Below, piece after piece: positions 2,724 through 40,630 of a DNA stretch of 64,000 nucleotides (position 1 is the first letter of the stretch; every line of letters begins with the position of its first letter). The notes beneath the pieces were generated by a model, which was given only the letters and a program-made list of their open reading frames with translations, had not been told where the DNA came from and did no database searches. The translations under genes were made by a program, and so were the position numbers. This stretch comes from Blautia coccoides (lineage in GTDB: Bacteria > Bacillota > Clostridia > Lachnospirales > Lachnospiraceae). Where the stretch lies: contig NZ_CP136422.1 in assembly GCF_034355335.1 (NCBI RefSeq), positions 3,258,501 through 3,322,500 of the forward strand, given 5' to 3'.

Positions 2724-3554
2724 TTACTTTTCCGTAAGAATCTGCAGGCAGATGGTGAACCGGGTATAAACGCCCTCCTCAGAGCAGACCCCCAGATCGG
2801 TCCCGAGCCTGTCACATATTTTCTTGCACAGGTACAGACCCATGCCGGTAGAACGGTGGTTTTCCCTGCCGTTTTTTCCTGTAAAACCCTTCTCGAAAAC
2901 CCTTGGCAGATCCTCCGAAGAGATGCCGCGACCATTATCCTGAATGTGAAGCAGCAGCTTATCTTCCCCCGGAGTCTGCCAGAAAAAGGTTATTTTGGGA
3001 GTCACTCCCACTCTTTTGTAGGTGACCGCATTGTAAATGATCTGGTTCAAAACGAACAAAAGTGCTTTCTCATCCGCATAAACTCCGGGTATAGTCTCCG
3101 GAATATCCAGGGCAACCTGATTTTGTATCAGGAGCTGCTTATTCATAGAAAGACATTCCCTGATAACATTCCCTGTATTTACCTTCTGTATCAGAAAGTC
3201 CGAGTGGGGGCTTTCGCTTCGTCCAAAATACAGGATCTGTTCTGAGAGATGGTTCATTTTTTCAAGTTCCAGAAGAACGGCTCTGTTATCCTGCGTCTTT
3301 TCTCTTCCCGCAATGAGAGAGATGACGGAAATAGGCTGCTTCATATCATGTACATAGCTTTCCAGAAGCTCCCGGTATTCCCGCTGCAGTCTTCCCGCTT
3401 CCTCGGTCTCCTCCAGCATGGATCTGGTGCACTCCTTCATCAGACAGTAATATCCTGCCTCTTCCCAGGTATCTGCGCCTTTCCACACCTGTGGAAAGAG
3501 ATACTTTTTATCCAGACTCTCCATAAGAACAGCCATTTTATGAAAATACTTCCT
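2724..3554 (-). pseudogene. BceS-like histidine kinase, 3' part (interrupted by IS110)
   Basis: C-terminal part of an intramembrane-sensing BceS-type kinase. It has the dimerisation/phosphoacceptor helix with SYVHDMKQPIS (H is the phosphorylated histidine), N-box around LNQIIYNAVTYK, G1 DNGRGI and G2 STGMGLYLCK. The native frame begins at the IS junction (about 3554). The missing N-terminus, with two membrane helices, lies at 5137-5316 beyond the IS110 element. Removing the element with a CT core joins the two parts in frame as ...FLKKR/KYFHKMA..., giving about 336 residues, the normal BceS length. The fragment is open into the element, and an ATG at 3570-3572 inside the IS could give a soluble product with seven IS-encoded residues. 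I see no strong ribosome binding site there. The sensor is probably lost. Confidence 0.9.
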
Positions 3555-3610
3555 ACTATTATATAAAGTCATAGTCTTTCTTTACCTTTTCTACAGGTTT
3601 GACTATGCTA

Positions 3611-3760
3611 TTTTAAGATACTGTGGATTGGTTATCACCTCCTACCACTTGATGGTTTAAAAAAGGCTCCAACCACAGTCTCTTTGTTTATTTGTTAATC
3701 AGTTAGTTACCGCATGACGGTTTATCAAGAAGTAGGTTACGATTGCAAGGAGCCCTGTGG
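3611..3760 (+). ncRNA. Candidate IS110 bridge RNA (target- and donor-binding loops)
   Basis: Two consecutive stem/internal-loop hairpins precede the transposase. Hairpin 1: CTGTGG+TTGG (3621-3631) pairs with CCAACCACAG (3669-3678); the internal loop strands are TTATCACCTCCT (3632-3643) and TTAAAAAAGGCT (3657-3668), capped by ACCA/TGGT. The left strand shares TCACCTCCT with the copy-2 target flank (38457-38465). AAAAAAGG in the right strand is complementary to CCTTTTTT at the copy-1 target. Hairpin 2: 3692-3700 pairs with 3741-3748, capped by ACCG/CGGT. Its left loop AGTTAGT (3701-3707) equals the element's right end before the CT core (5128-5134). Its right loop AGTAGG (3731-3736) is complementary to the left end CTACT. 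This is the arrangement established for IS621-type bridge RNAs. The RNA ends are guesses. Confidence 0.75.
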
Positions 3761-3801
3761 ATCTTAAGACAGTATCAATACTTTATATCAGGAGGTCCTA
3801 T

Positions 3802-4977
3802 ATGATTTACGTAGGAATTGATGTCGCAAAAGATAAGCATGATTGCTTTATCACAAACTCTGATGGCGAAGTCCTTTTCAAGGCTTTTACCATCAAAAAC
3901 AATCTCGATGGGTTCGACGAGCTTTATCAGAAAATAGAATCCGTTATGGAAGATGCTTCTAAAGTAAAAGTAGGCCTAGAAGCCACTGGACACTATAGTT
4001 ACAATCTTCTCGGATATCTGCTTGATAAAGGTCTGGCCACCTTTGTTATCAACCCGTTACATACTAATCTGTACAGAAAAAGTCTAAGCCTTAGACAGAC
4101 GAAAACGGATAAAGTTGATGCCCATACAATTGCTTCTATGCTAATGTCTGACGTGAACTTAAAGTCCTACTCAGACACATCGTATCACAACGAAGAGCTT
4201 AAGTCACTTACTCGCTATCGTTTTGATAAAGTTAAAGAACGCGCGAAGCTTAAAACATCTATATCCCGTCTTGTATGTATCCTTTTCCCTGAGTTAGAAA
4301 AGCTTGTTCCAACACTTCATCAGAATTCTGTTTATGAGTTACTCTACGAATTTCCTGGTGCAAAACAGGTAGCTAATGCACATCTCACAAGACTTTCAAA
4401 TCTTCTTGAAACCGCATCTAAAGGCCACTACACAAAAGAAACCTCTATCGCTTTTAGAGAGGCTGCAAGAACCTCTATCGGTTCAAATATGCCAGCTAAA
4501 TCGCTTGAATTAAAGCACACCATTAAGCTCATTAGAGAGCTAGATTCTGAAATCGAAGAGATTGAAAACGAGATTAAAGTCATCATGGATGAAATCAATT
4601 CTCCAATCCTTAGCATTCCTGGAATCAGCTATCGAATGGGTGCCATGATTATTGCTGAAATAGGTGACTTTAGCCAATTCGACTCTCCAGATAAGATCCT
4701 TGCTTATGCAGGAATGTCGCCTTCTACCTATCAATCCGGCCAGTTAGATAACTGTTATGCCAGAATGGAAAAACGTGGTTCTAGATACCTTAGATATGCT
4801 CTGTTTAATGCAACCGCATATGTTTGTCTATGGGATCCAACCTACAAGGCTTATCTTGCCAAGAAACGAGCTGAAGGCAAGCATTACTATGTTGCAATGT
4901 CTCACGCGACCAAGAAACTAGTTCGGCTAATTTATCATCTCGAACGCACTGGACAGCAATACCAAAAAGCAATCTAA
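3802..4977 (+). CDS. IS110-family transposase (DEDD recombinase), copy 1
   Basis: 391-residue RNA-guided-type recombinase of the IS110 family. The N-terminal RuvC-like DEDD domain shows GIDVAKDKHD (first Asp), GLEATGHY (Glu) and KTDKVDAHTIA (last two Asp). A central helical region follows. The C-terminal transposase_20 domain has SIPGISYRMGAMIIAEIGD and LAYAGMSPSTYQSG, which holds the candidate catalytic serine. The start is the ATG at 3802 because AGGAGG lies six bases upstream; the frame extends 15 codons further 5' but without a ribosome binding site. The length is typical of a full, uninterrupted enzyme. The protein is identical to the one at 38713-39888, so the element probably moved recently. 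The noncoding region upstream probably encodes its guide RNA. Confidence 0.95.
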   Translation: MIYVGIDVAKDKHDCFITNSDGEVLFKAFTIKNNLDGFDELYQKIESVMEDASKVKVGLEATGHYSYNLLGYLLDKGLATFVINPLHTNLYRKSLSLRQTKTDKVDAHTIASMLMSDVNLKSYSDTSYHNEELKSLTRYRFDKVKERAKLKTSISRLVCILFPELEKLVPTLHQNSVYELLYEFPGAKQVANAHLTRLSNLLETASKGHYTKETSIAFREAARTSIGSNMPAKSLELKHTIKLIRELDSEIEEIENEIKVIMDEINSPILSIPGISYRMGAMIIAEIGDFSQFDSPDKILAYAGMSPSTYQSGQLDNCYARMEKRGSRYLRYALFNATAYVCLWDPTYKAYLAKKRAEGKHYYVAMSHATKKLVRLIYHLERTGQQYQKAI

Positions 4978-5136
4978 TTCTTCCAACATCATATCTTCTT
5001 GTCAGAGCATCATACTCGATGCTCTATTTGTCATGCAATTTTCAAGGTACTGATTGCGATGAATAAGTCATCGCCACTATACTCAAAACATCTCTGTTTT
5101 TGAAACTATTTATTGACTTTCTTTAATAGTTAGTCT

Positions 5137-38098: not shown

Positions 38099-38452
38099 CT
38101 ATTTATCCAGCTCTTCTTTTTCAATCAGGGAGCCATCTCTCCAGATTCTCTCCAAATCATAGAAAAGGCGGTTCTCCTCATCAAAAATATGAATTACCAC
38201 GTCCCTGTAATCCATCAGGATCCAATTTGCATTCTGGTAGCCTTCGATCTGCTTTGGCTCTATCTGTGCTTTCCCAAGGATTTCTTCTACGTTATCTGCC
38301 ATGGCCTGTACCTGATTCCGGTTGCTGCCGCTGGCAATAATGAAATAGTCTGCCAAAGTGGATACCTTTTCAATATTGATGATTTTTACTTCCAGCGCCT
38401 TTTTGTCTTCCAATGCTTCACACGCCATCCGTGCGATTTCCTTACTGTTCAT
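38099..38452 (-). CDS. rsfS: Ribosomal silencing factor RsfS
   Basis: 117 residues, full length for RsfS/Iojap. Core motifs include KALEVKIINIEKVSTLADYFIIASGSNRNQVQAMADNVEE and NWILMDYRDVVIHIFDEENRLFYDLERIW. It binds L14 on the large subunit and blocks subunit joining in stationary phase. Its ATG originally overlapped the yqeK stop (ATGA). The second IS110 copy now lies directly upstream; the insertion retained AGGAGGTGA in front of the ATG, so translation signals are intact, but transcription now has to cross or start in the IS. IS66 is inserted 30 bp after its stop. Confidence 0.95.
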   Translation of the reverse strand: MNSKEIARMACEALEDKKALEVKIINIEKVSTLADYFIIASGSNRNQVQAMADNVEEILGKAQIEPKQIEGYQNANWILMDYRDVVIHIFDEENRLFYDLERIWRDGSLIEKEELDK

Positions 38453-38521
38453 ATATTCACCTCCTACTATTATATAAAGTCATAGTCTTTCTTTACCTTT
38501 TCTACAGGTTTGACTATGCTA

Positions 38522-38671
38522 TTTTAAGATACTGTGGATTGGTTATCACCTCCTACCACTTGATGGTTTAAAAAAGGCTCCAACCACAGTCTCTTTGTTT
38601 ATTTGTTAATCAGTTAGTTACCGCATGACGGTTTATCAAGAAGTAGGTTACGATTGCAAGGAGCCCTGTGG
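38522..38671 (+). ncRNA. Candidate IS110 bridge RNA, copy 2
   Basis: Identical to 3611-3760. Target-loop left strand ATCACCTCCT at 38545-38554, right strand AAAAAAGG at 38570-38577; donor-loop strands AGTTAGT (38612-38618) and AGTAGG (38642-38647). The target-loop left strand agrees over nine consecutive bases with this copy's own left flank plus core (38457-38465). Confidence 0.75.
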
Positions 38672-38712
38672 ATCTTAAGACAGTATCAATACTTTATATC
38701 AGGAGGTCCTAT

Positions 38713-39888
38713 ATGATTTACGTAGGAATTGATGTCGCAAAAGATAAGCATGATTGCTTTATCACAAACTCTGATGGCGAAGTCCTTTTCAAGGCTTTTA
38801 CCATCAAAAACAATCTCGATGGGTTCGACGAGCTTTATCAGAAAATAGAATCCGTTATGGAAGATGCTTCTAAAGTAAAAGTAGGCCTAGAAGCCACTGG
38901 ACACTATAGTTACAATCTTCTCGGATATCTGCTTGATAAAGGTCTGGCCACCTTTGTTATCAACCCGTTACATACTAATCTGTACAGAAAAAGTCTAAGC
39001 CTTAGACAGACGAAAACGGATAAAGTTGATGCCCATACAATTGCTTCTATGCTAATGTCTGACGTGAACTTAAAGTCCTACTCAGACACATCGTATCACA
39101 ACGAAGAGCTTAAGTCACTTACTCGCTATCGTTTTGATAAAGTTAAAGAACGCGCGAAGCTTAAAACATCTATATCCCGTCTTGTATGTATCCTTTTCCC
39201 TGAGTTAGAAAAGCTTGTTCCAACACTTCATCAGAATTCTGTTTATGAGTTACTCTACGAATTTCCTGGTGCAAAACAGGTAGCTAATGCACATCTCACA
39301 AGACTTTCAAATCTTCTTGAAACCGCATCTAAAGGCCACTACACAAAAGAAACCTCTATCGCTTTTAGAGAGGCTGCAAGAACCTCTATCGGTTCAAATA
39401 TGCCAGCTAAATCGCTTGAATTAAAGCACACCATTAAGCTCATTAGAGAGCTAGATTCTGAAATCGAAGAGATTGAAAACGAGATTAAAGTCATCATGGA
39501 TGAAATCAATTCTCCAATCCTTAGCATTCCTGGAATCAGCTATCGAATGGGTGCCATGATTATTGCTGAAATAGGTGACTTTAGCCAATTCGACTCTCCA
39601 GATAAGATCCTTGCTTATGCAGGAATGTCGCCTTCTACCTATCAATCCGGCCAGTTAGATAACTGTTATGCCAGAATGGAAAAACGTGGTTCTAGATACC
39701 TTAGATATGCTCTGTTTAATGCAACCGCATATGTTTGTCTATGGGATCCAACCTACAAGGCTTATCTTGCCAAGAAACGAGCTGAAGGCAAGCATTACTA
39801 TGTTGCAATGTCTCACGCGACCAAGAAACTAGTTCGGCTAATTTATCATCTCGAACGCACTGGACAGCAATACCAAAAAGCAATCTAA
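38713..39888 (+). CDS. IS110-family transposase, copy 2
   Basis: 391 residues, same protein as at 3802-4977, with intact DEDD residues (GIDVAKDKHD, GLEATGHY, KTDKVDAHTIA) and the C-terminal serine-containing domain. AGGAGG precedes the ATG. Transcribed against the rplU-rsfS operon, so operon read-through would give antisense RNA to it. Two intact identical copies mean a single active transposase could mobilise either. Confidence 0.95.
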   Translation: MIYVGIDVAKDKHDCFITNSDGEVLFKAFTIKNNLDGFDELYQKIESVMEDASKVKVGLEATGHYSYNLLGYLLDKGLATFVINPLHTNLYRKSLSLRQTKTDKVDAHTIASMLMSDVNLKSYSDTSYHNEELKSLTRYRFDKVKERAKLKTSISRLVCILFPELEKLVPTLHQNSVYELLYEFPGAKQVANAHLTRLSNLLETASKGHYTKETSIAFREAARTSIGSNMPAKSLELKHTIKLIRELDSEIEEIENEIKVIMDEINSPILSIPGISYRMGAMIIAEIGDFSQFDSPDKILAYAGMSPSTYQSGQLDNCYARMEKRGSRYLRYALFNATAYVCLWDPTYKAYLAKKRAEGKHYYVAMSHATKKLVRLIYHLERTGQQYQKAI

Positions 39889-40033
39889 TTCTTCCAACAT
39901 CATATCTTCTTGTCAGAGCATCATACTCGATGCTCTATTTGTCATGCAATTTTCAAGGTACTGATTGCGATGAATAAGTCATCGCCACTATACTCAAAAC
40001 ATCTCTGTTTTTGAAACTATTTATTGACTTTCT

Positions 40034-40630
40034 TTAATAGTTAGTCTTCTTTATTTTATTGTTATGAATCTCTTCGTAATAAACAAATGCTTCTTTTGTA
40101 GCAGGATCCAGAGTTTTCGGATTGCTTCCGAGATAATCAAGAGTATCCCTCAGCACCTCATACATGCATTCATCTAGGTCCTCAAAGGCCAGTCTGCGCA
40201 CTCTCGCTAGATTGGGCGCCTTGTCCCTGCCTGGTTCAATATAGTCTGCCAGGTAGATGATCTTTTCAAGCTGAGTCATCTCCGGTTTGCCTGTGGTATG
40301 CCAACGGACAGCAGACAGAATCTCCTTATCCTCAACATCATACTTTTTTCTGGCTATATAAACCCCTAATTTTGAGTGAAGAAGAAACGGTGCTTTTTCT
40401 TCTATCTCAGAAACTGGAATATTCTTTTTTTCACACAGCTTCAGTTTCTTATCATTTGGTATACATTTCGCACAGTCATGAAGCATTCCTGCTGTCTGTG
40501 CCTTTTCCAAATCACCGCCATGGGCCATAGCCAAAGCTGCCGCTGTATACATCACTCCAAGAGTGTGTACATAACGCTCTTCATCGAGATGTTTTTTCAA
40601 TTTTTTTGAAAAGGCTCTCAAATCATAATT
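40034..40630 (-). CDS. yqeK: YqeK-type HD-domain hydrolase (C-terminus replaced by IS110)
   Basis: 198 residues. HD-domain metal ligands: H in RYVHTLGV, HD in GMLHDCAK, H in FLLHSKLG and D in YLADYIEPGR. Bacterial YqeK proteins hydrolyse diadenosine tetraphosphate symmetrically. The start at 40630 follows GAGGAA and overlaps the end of nadD by 8 bp. The last residues and stop codon are now IS110 sequence: the tail KKTNY replaces an original KKEVNI whose TGA overlapped the rsfS ATG. The change is outside the catalytic domain, so the enzyme is probably functional. Confidence 0.92.
   Translation of the reverse strand, partial: NYDLRAFSKKLKKHLDEERYVHTLGVMYTAAALAMAHGGDLEKAQTAGMLHDCAKCIPNDKKLKLCEKKNIPVSEIEEKAPFLLHSKLGVYIARKKYDVEDKEILSAVRWHTTGKPEMTQLEKIIYLADYIEPGRDKAPNLARVRRLAFEDLDECMYEVLRDTLDYLGSNPKTLDPATKEAFVYYEEIHNNKIKKTNY

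Follow-up and report, generated by a model that had tools for sequence, protein, structure and literature searches.

A bridge RNA that appears to be programmed for ribosome-binding sites in an IS110-group element of Blautia coccoides

An insertion sequence (IS) of the IS110 group in Blautia coccoides very probably moves by bridge-RNA-guided recombination in which the target read by one RNA loop is the ribosome-binding site (RBS) of host genes. The window analyzed here is a stretch of 64,000 nucleotides from the forward strand of the host genome (assembly GCF_034355335.1, contig NZ_CP136422.1, positions 3,258,501 to 3,322,500). Judged from its DNA sequence, the segment at window positions 3553-5136 belongs to the IS110 group of insertion sequences, and its left end contains a bridge RNA. 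In the mechanism proposed, the RNA of the element would pair one loop with target DNA and the other with donor DNA, and recombination would occur at a CT core, as in IS621. The left guide of the target loop (LTG) would read the Shine-Dalgarno (SD) sequence and the right guide (RTG) the purine-rich stretch that precedes it, such that the element would usually insert into the SD in the orientation opposite to the gene, leaving both the SD and the start codon intact at its left end. The matching of guides to flanks, the RNA structure, the covariation of the donor loop, the location at gene starts and the orientation of the element are all read from the sequences themselves. Expression of the RNA, the chemistry of recombination and a benefit to the element are what we infer beyond these; such a benefit would presumably consist of targets present in every host and of less damage to coding sequence.

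Copy 1 of the element (3553-5136, plus strand; 1582 bp and an additional CT core) sits within a minus-strand histidine-kinase-like gene. Its left CT core (3553-3554) is followed, all on the plus strand, by a long non-coding left end (LE) of 247 bp that contains the bridge RNA (3555-3801), by the gene for a recombinase of 391 amino acids (3802-4977) and by a right end (RE; 4978-5136) that includes the right CT core (5135-5136). Copy 2 (38464-40047, plus strand, inclusive of its CT cores at 38464-38465 and 40046-40047) lies in an RBS. An initial annotation of this DNA had described a two-copy element with a CT core at both ends. The cores are present in both copies, and both copies of the window lie on the plus strand, but the count does not hold beyond the window: the host genome, a single contig of 6.10 Mb, carries 18 full and two partial copies at 99-100% identity. 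Recent activity, also proposed in that annotation, is supported by the 18 nearly identical full copies. The LE was matched in none of 19 other genomes of the same genus, and the element has presumably spread recently in this lineage.

The recombinase matched the Pfam families DEDD_Tnp_IS110 (PF01548, E = 3.4e-43) and Transposase_20 (PF02371, E = 1.2e-21). It is homologous to the recombinase of IS621 from Escherichia coli (PDB 8wt6, E = 1.3e-20) and to the IS110 transposase of ISCro4 (PDB 9t56, E = 2e-19), although with 391 residues it is longer than the IS621 chain of 328 residues in the PDB entry. Its DEDD residues (D7, E60, D103 and D106) and Ser312 align with D11, E60, D102, D105 and S241 of IS621, the catalytic residues named in PMC11208158.

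Within the LE, a 5' stem-loop (3567-3610, plus strand), predicted for the bridge RNA by a single-sequence fold only, precedes hairpin 1, the target-binding loop (3621-3678, plus strand), and hairpin 2, the donor-binding loop (3679-3753, plus strand). The consensus structure rests on an alignment of 65 rows, reduced to 62 by removal of L022, L084 and L098 and to 61 by removal of L026. The final set of 49 RNAs additionally omits L082 and L095, for which the pick landed on a self-insertion scar, L094 and L100, which have odd ends, and L037, L039, L047, L054, L056, L070, L078 and L080, which were dropped to make the set smaller. The consensus of these 49 RNAs comprises hairpins 1 and 2 with 99.0% of cells paired, compared with 33.6-49.5% in slid control structures. 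Cells with changes on both sides of a pair numbered 23, against 3.7 in shuffled alignments, and none of 500 shuffles reached the observed value. The changes fall in six pairs, all among the 15 pairs of hairpin 1; hairpin 2 contained no pair changed on both sides in the 49-RNA alignment. Single-sequence folds were no better than those of shuffled sequences (z = 0.09 and -1.22), and an Rfam scan of the window returned no match at the gathering score. In the minimum-energy fold of a longer piece, GATACTGT pairs with ACAGTATC, CCACAG pairs with a second CTGTGG (3755-3760) and hairpin 1 is absent. This second CTGTGG, which lies 3' of hairpin 2, was found in 35 of the 49 aligned RNAs; it could draw CCACAG away from hairpin 1 and so possibly act as a switch. 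The SD of the recombinase gene itself (AGGAGG, 3790-3795) is complementary to the LTG, which makes binding of the bridge RNA to the recombinase mRNA conceivable.

The LTG (3633-3643, plus strand) reads UAUCACCUCCU and equals the left target plus the CT core, while the RTG (3658-3666, plus strand) reads UAAAAAAGG and is complementary to CCTTTTTTA, the core plus the right target. The letters of UAUCACCUCCU are also those of the anti-SD end of 16S rRNA. Both matches of hairpin 1 to insertion sites reported in the initial annotation were reproduced: TCACCTCCT is present at 3635-3643 and in the flank of copy 2 at 38457-38465, and AAAAAAGG, the strand described as complementary to an empty site, was confirmed at 3659-3666. 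The 20 genomic copies yield 19 left and 19 right junctions, with both flanks available for 18 copies. In agreement with the guide, TCCT is found at the end of every left flank (19/19), and the right flanks are rich in T. The CT core matches the guide in 19/19 cases; leftward of it, the next four guide letters match in 19, 19, 17 and 12 of the 19 flanks, and the first five rightward in 19, 17, 19, 18 and 16. Counting from the 3' end of the LTG with the core included, its letters 7 and 8 match in only 7/19 and 5/19 flanks; the distal LTG is thus hardly used, and the working guide, core excluded, comprises some four letters to the left and five to the right. At least 10 of 15 non-core matches were observed for 13 of the 18 two-flank copies, compared with 0.155% of 20,000 random flank positions. 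Insertions with flanks unrelated to the loop strands had been named at the outset as the evidence that would count against guidance; the 19 left and 19 right flanks did not refute it. The host genome contains 13 exact TCACCTCCTTT sites, and the element occupies none of these.

On the opposite strand to that of the element, most empty sites read as an A-rich stretch followed by AGGAG(G) and a start codon. In 14 of 19 own copies, the opposite strand has, 5-15 nt past the core, an ATG that opens a reading frame of at least 50 codons; when GTG, TTG and a wider window were allowed, the count rose to 16/19, one of them (L009) an internal ATG. The strict ATG test was passed by 1613 of 26,400 random flank positions (6.1%) and by 78 of 391 CTCCT motifs elsewhere in the flanks. 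On the other side of the element, the control count was 2/19. Of the 105 CTCCTTTTTT sites in the genome, the first 30 listed were sampled, and 11 of them were at gene starts. Four own copies are without a clean RBS: L009, inside a histidine-kinase-like gene; L010 and L004, with open frames of 430 and 102 codons and of 185 and 86 codons, respectively, on their two sides, counted irrespective of phase; and L001, with an open frame of 454 codons on one side only.

At the RBS insertions, the SD, made up of the core AG and the left target, stays together with the start codon beside the LE. In copy 2, this SD is AGGAGGTGA (38457-38465, minus strand), kept beside an rsfS-like gene of 117 codons, stop excluded (38102-38452, minus strand), whose RBS holds the element. 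The reading-frame restoration claimed previously does not apply to copy 2, where no frame is interrupted. Open reading frames follow 16 of the own-genome insertions; 10 were searched and 10/10 matched a Pfam family, with the domain beginning within the first 25 residues in seven cases and at residues 37 (L015), 74 (L013) and 297 (L018) in the remainder. The bottom strand of the LE carries TATAAT close to the SD, a candidate outward promoter.

To follow the guides across related elements, the best 80 of 326 relatives (74-92% recombinase identity), mostly from Lachnospiraceae and other Clostridia, were compared. The layout is largely common to them, and guides could be parsed in 77. Guides and flanks were scored for the 63 relatives with both guides and both flanks, together with copy 1 (64 rows), which collapse to 54 distinct guide pairs once identical ones are merged. 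Left guides matched their own flank at 5.31 of 7 positions and the flanks of others at 3.39; for right guides the values were 4.26 of 6 and 2.63. Neither own-flank score was reached in any of 10,000 permutations, a procedure that ignores relatedness among rows. Targets predicted from the guides alone pair with the anti-SD at a mean of -11.4 kcal/mol, compared with -5.7 kcal/mol for shuffled guides, and an SD 5-mer (GGAGG, AGGAG, GAGGT or AGGTG) is present in 46 of 54 guide pairs, as opposed to 18% of shuffles. On a recombinase tree of 78 rows (the 77 relatives and the window element), which was built quickly and leaves 29 of 69 inner branches open, the 41 LTG 9-mers require at least 54 changes and the 40 RTGs at least 53. 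Natural turnover of this kind suggests that the bridge RNA is programmable.

Among the 69 relatives with a left flank of 170 or more bases, 41 passed the strict ATG test and 28 failed; a liberal version of the test was passed by 47/69, against 14.6% of random positions, and the other-side control gave 2/72. Elements were also recovered from viral contigs, where 17 loci reduce to 13 distinct sites, six of which pass the gene-start test; one of these (L164) passes solely with an open reading frame cut by the contig end, and the site of L154 had already occurred in the first set. The seven parsed viral-contig elements matched their own flanks at 5.9 of 7 left and 5.3 of 6 right positions, compared with 3.4 and 3.5 for the flanks of others. 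Faecalibacterium phage Roos, whose genome is complete, carries a member with a right flank, CTCCCGAA, that was read by eye as identical to the complement of the RTG of this member, which fails the strict gene-start test.

The guides can also be read in another way, in which the true target would be the 3' end of 16S rRNA genes and the SD insertions would be off-targets, since SDs mirror that sequence. The window LTG TCACCTCCT is letter-identical to the 16S tail, and the majority RTG reads CCTTTCT, the continuation of that tail after CACCTCCT. This explanation is nevertheless unlikely. The expected GGATCACC was at the junction in none of the left flanks of the own copies and parsed relatives, none of which is masked there, and many guides depart from 16S (CTAACTTA, CTTACTTA, CTCGTATG) but match their own flanks. 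A search for 16S junctions matched one of 397 genomes, without the IS, in assemblies in which rRNA appears masked, as the lack of a conserved 16S string in the complete 6.1-Mb host genome suggests. That single match (L150) proved to be an ordinary RBS with no IS.

Alternatively, the location at gene starts could reflect survivorship, in which a loose T-rich motif is hit anywhere and insertions in coding sequence are subsequently lost. The excess of the 14/19 insertions at gene starts over the 11/30 sampled CTCCTTTTTT sites (Fisher p = 0.019) is what such loss would predict. It implies that something besides the guide adds to the bias, and loss of harmful insertions probably does so. As an explanation of the whole pattern, survivorship is distinctly improbable: the SD 5-mer is found in 46/54 guide pairs that were read without reference to flanks, guide and flank covary (0/10,000 permutations), and some insertions that lack a clean RBS persist (4/19). 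It is scarcely credible that the recombinase protein itself recognizes RBS DNA, with the resemblance of the loop incidental, since, although all 80 relatives are close at the protein level (74-92%), the protein tree requires at least 53-54 changes of guide, which the flanks follow (0/10,000 permutations), and the seven parsed viral-contig elements agree, one of which (L154) repeats a first-set site.

Guided targeting of the SD also encompasses relatives with a shifted register. Guides of L074 and L078 put the SD across the core, and those of L071, L076, L081 and L096 place it 1-2 bases off; the start codons at these sites are ATG (L074, L078, L076 and L096), TTG (L071) and GTG (L081). In L084, the SD is likewise a base or two off the core, the site is not at a start codon and the guide matches at one of seven left positions. 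In the self-insertion scars of L082 and L095, a partial left end runs up to the CT of the LTG and meets a full element at precisely that point, as expected if the DNA of the LTG can itself serve as a left target. The right flanks of L065, L069, L075 and L077 read CTCGTAT and resemble the left end of sister elements. The RTG of L069, L075 and L077 is CATACGAGG, and the targets of this subgroup of four may be sites where an SD abuts a previous sister insertion.

The donor loop agrees with the ends of the element, as the initial annotation had noted for hairpin 2. The LDG (3701-3707, plus strand), AGTTAGT, equals the right end at 5128-5134, and the RDG (3731-3736, plus strand), AGTAGG, is complementary to CCTACT at the left end. 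The RDG is complementary to the left-end tetramer in all 67 elements with both parsed, with the states GTAG/CTAC in 11, CGAG/CTCG in 49, CAAG/CTTG in six and GCAG/CTGC in one; the left-end pattern permitted these four tetramers only and identified a left end in 76 of 81 elements. The last letters of the LDG are in full agreement with the right end in 13 + 5 elements, and in three the LDG GTTAA changes together with the right end; a mismatch at the core-adjacent base was observed in 55/76.

Joining of RE to LE would create a candidate promoter, with TTGACT (5113-5118, plus strand) as a possible -35 element 17 bp from TACTAT in the LE and the promoter present only in the joined form. Across joined RE-LE sequences, TTGACW-17 bp-TATTAT, TACTAT, TATAAT or TGCTAT was, as a raw count, the top pick of the scan in 68/75. 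For the window element, the top pick was TTGAAA-16-TTTAAT inside the RE, with TTGACT-17-TACTAT also there. A 1563-bp circular record, 'plasmid 10' of Monoglobus pectinilyticus (L173), has as its sole annotated gene a recombinase of this clade (79% identity). Its RE-LE junction contains three extra bases (CAC), which are the last non-core bases of the LTG. The record is perhaps a circular intermediate of a clade element, or it could be an assembly artefact.

Compensatory changes in hairpin 1, the matching of guides to their own flanks, the complementarity of RDG and left end and the aligned active site together support the IS621-type bridge-RNA logic first suggested for this element. The comparison is made with the IS621 recombination model (PMC11208160 and PMC11208158). 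The two systems share a bridge RNA in the LE with a 5' stem-loop, a target loop followed by a donor loop and a CT core, an LTG that reads the left target and an RTG that reads the core and right target; IS621 also has a promoter across its RE-LE junction, of which the joined ends here contain a candidate counterpart. By contrast, IS621 targets REP elements (PMC11208160), whereas the present element targets ribosome-binding sites. The IS1111-group/seekRNA system described in PMC11187229 shares RNA-guided target choice by a DEDD transposase, but IS1111 RNAs are located mostly in the right end (PMC11208160) and the RNA of the present element is in the left end. More than 300 elements were surveyed for target logos in PMC11187229, where the one mention of a ribosome binding site concerns a cargo gene. 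No bridge RNA aimed at RBSs was found in the literature searched. IS110 bridge RNAs are already known, and what is new relative to that literature is a natural program that reads SD sequences.

IS900 of Mycobacterium avium subsp. paratuberculosis, also of the IS110 family, inserts between the RBS and the start codon in one orientation, and the work on its RBS insertion predates bridge RNAs. Its host is actinobacterial, unlike that of the present element; the preference is not stated in the passages of PMC7823733 consulted. The chances seem about even that a whole IS110 branch in Bacillota has its bridge RNA locked on the RBS, with selection keeping guides complementary to the SD as they mutate and shift register; the same principle could also account for the preference of IS900. 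If so, the element would carry a second copy of the code with which the ribosome reads mRNA and use it to read DNA, and RBS insertion by distant IS110 relatives would have a possible explanation. Bridge RNAs have been shown to be programmable, yet their natural programs, and the reasons for these, have been little explored; here a clade-wide program can be read, and it corresponds to a near-universal short motif upstream of genes. A testable reason for that choice would be sites in every host and a gene start left intact, and the natural reprogramming events provide material for deriving guide rules. Insertion at an RBS replaces everything upstream of the SD with IS sequence, which then separates the SD from the promoter; expression may change as a result, and each event may rewire transcription of the gene.

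Location alone was read for eight distant plasmid elements (32-45% recombinase identity), taken from the top of the identity list among 1423 records and from different organisms. In six of the eight (L168, L169, L170, L172, L175 and L176, with the left-end borders of L169 and L175 set by eye), the annotated start codon of a gene on the opposite strand lies directly beyond the left end; it is absent at L171 and L177. The gene at whose start L172 sits, on an Enterococcus faecium plasmid (34% identity), encodes a streptothricin acetyltransferase; an aminoglycoside gene lies on the other side of the element.
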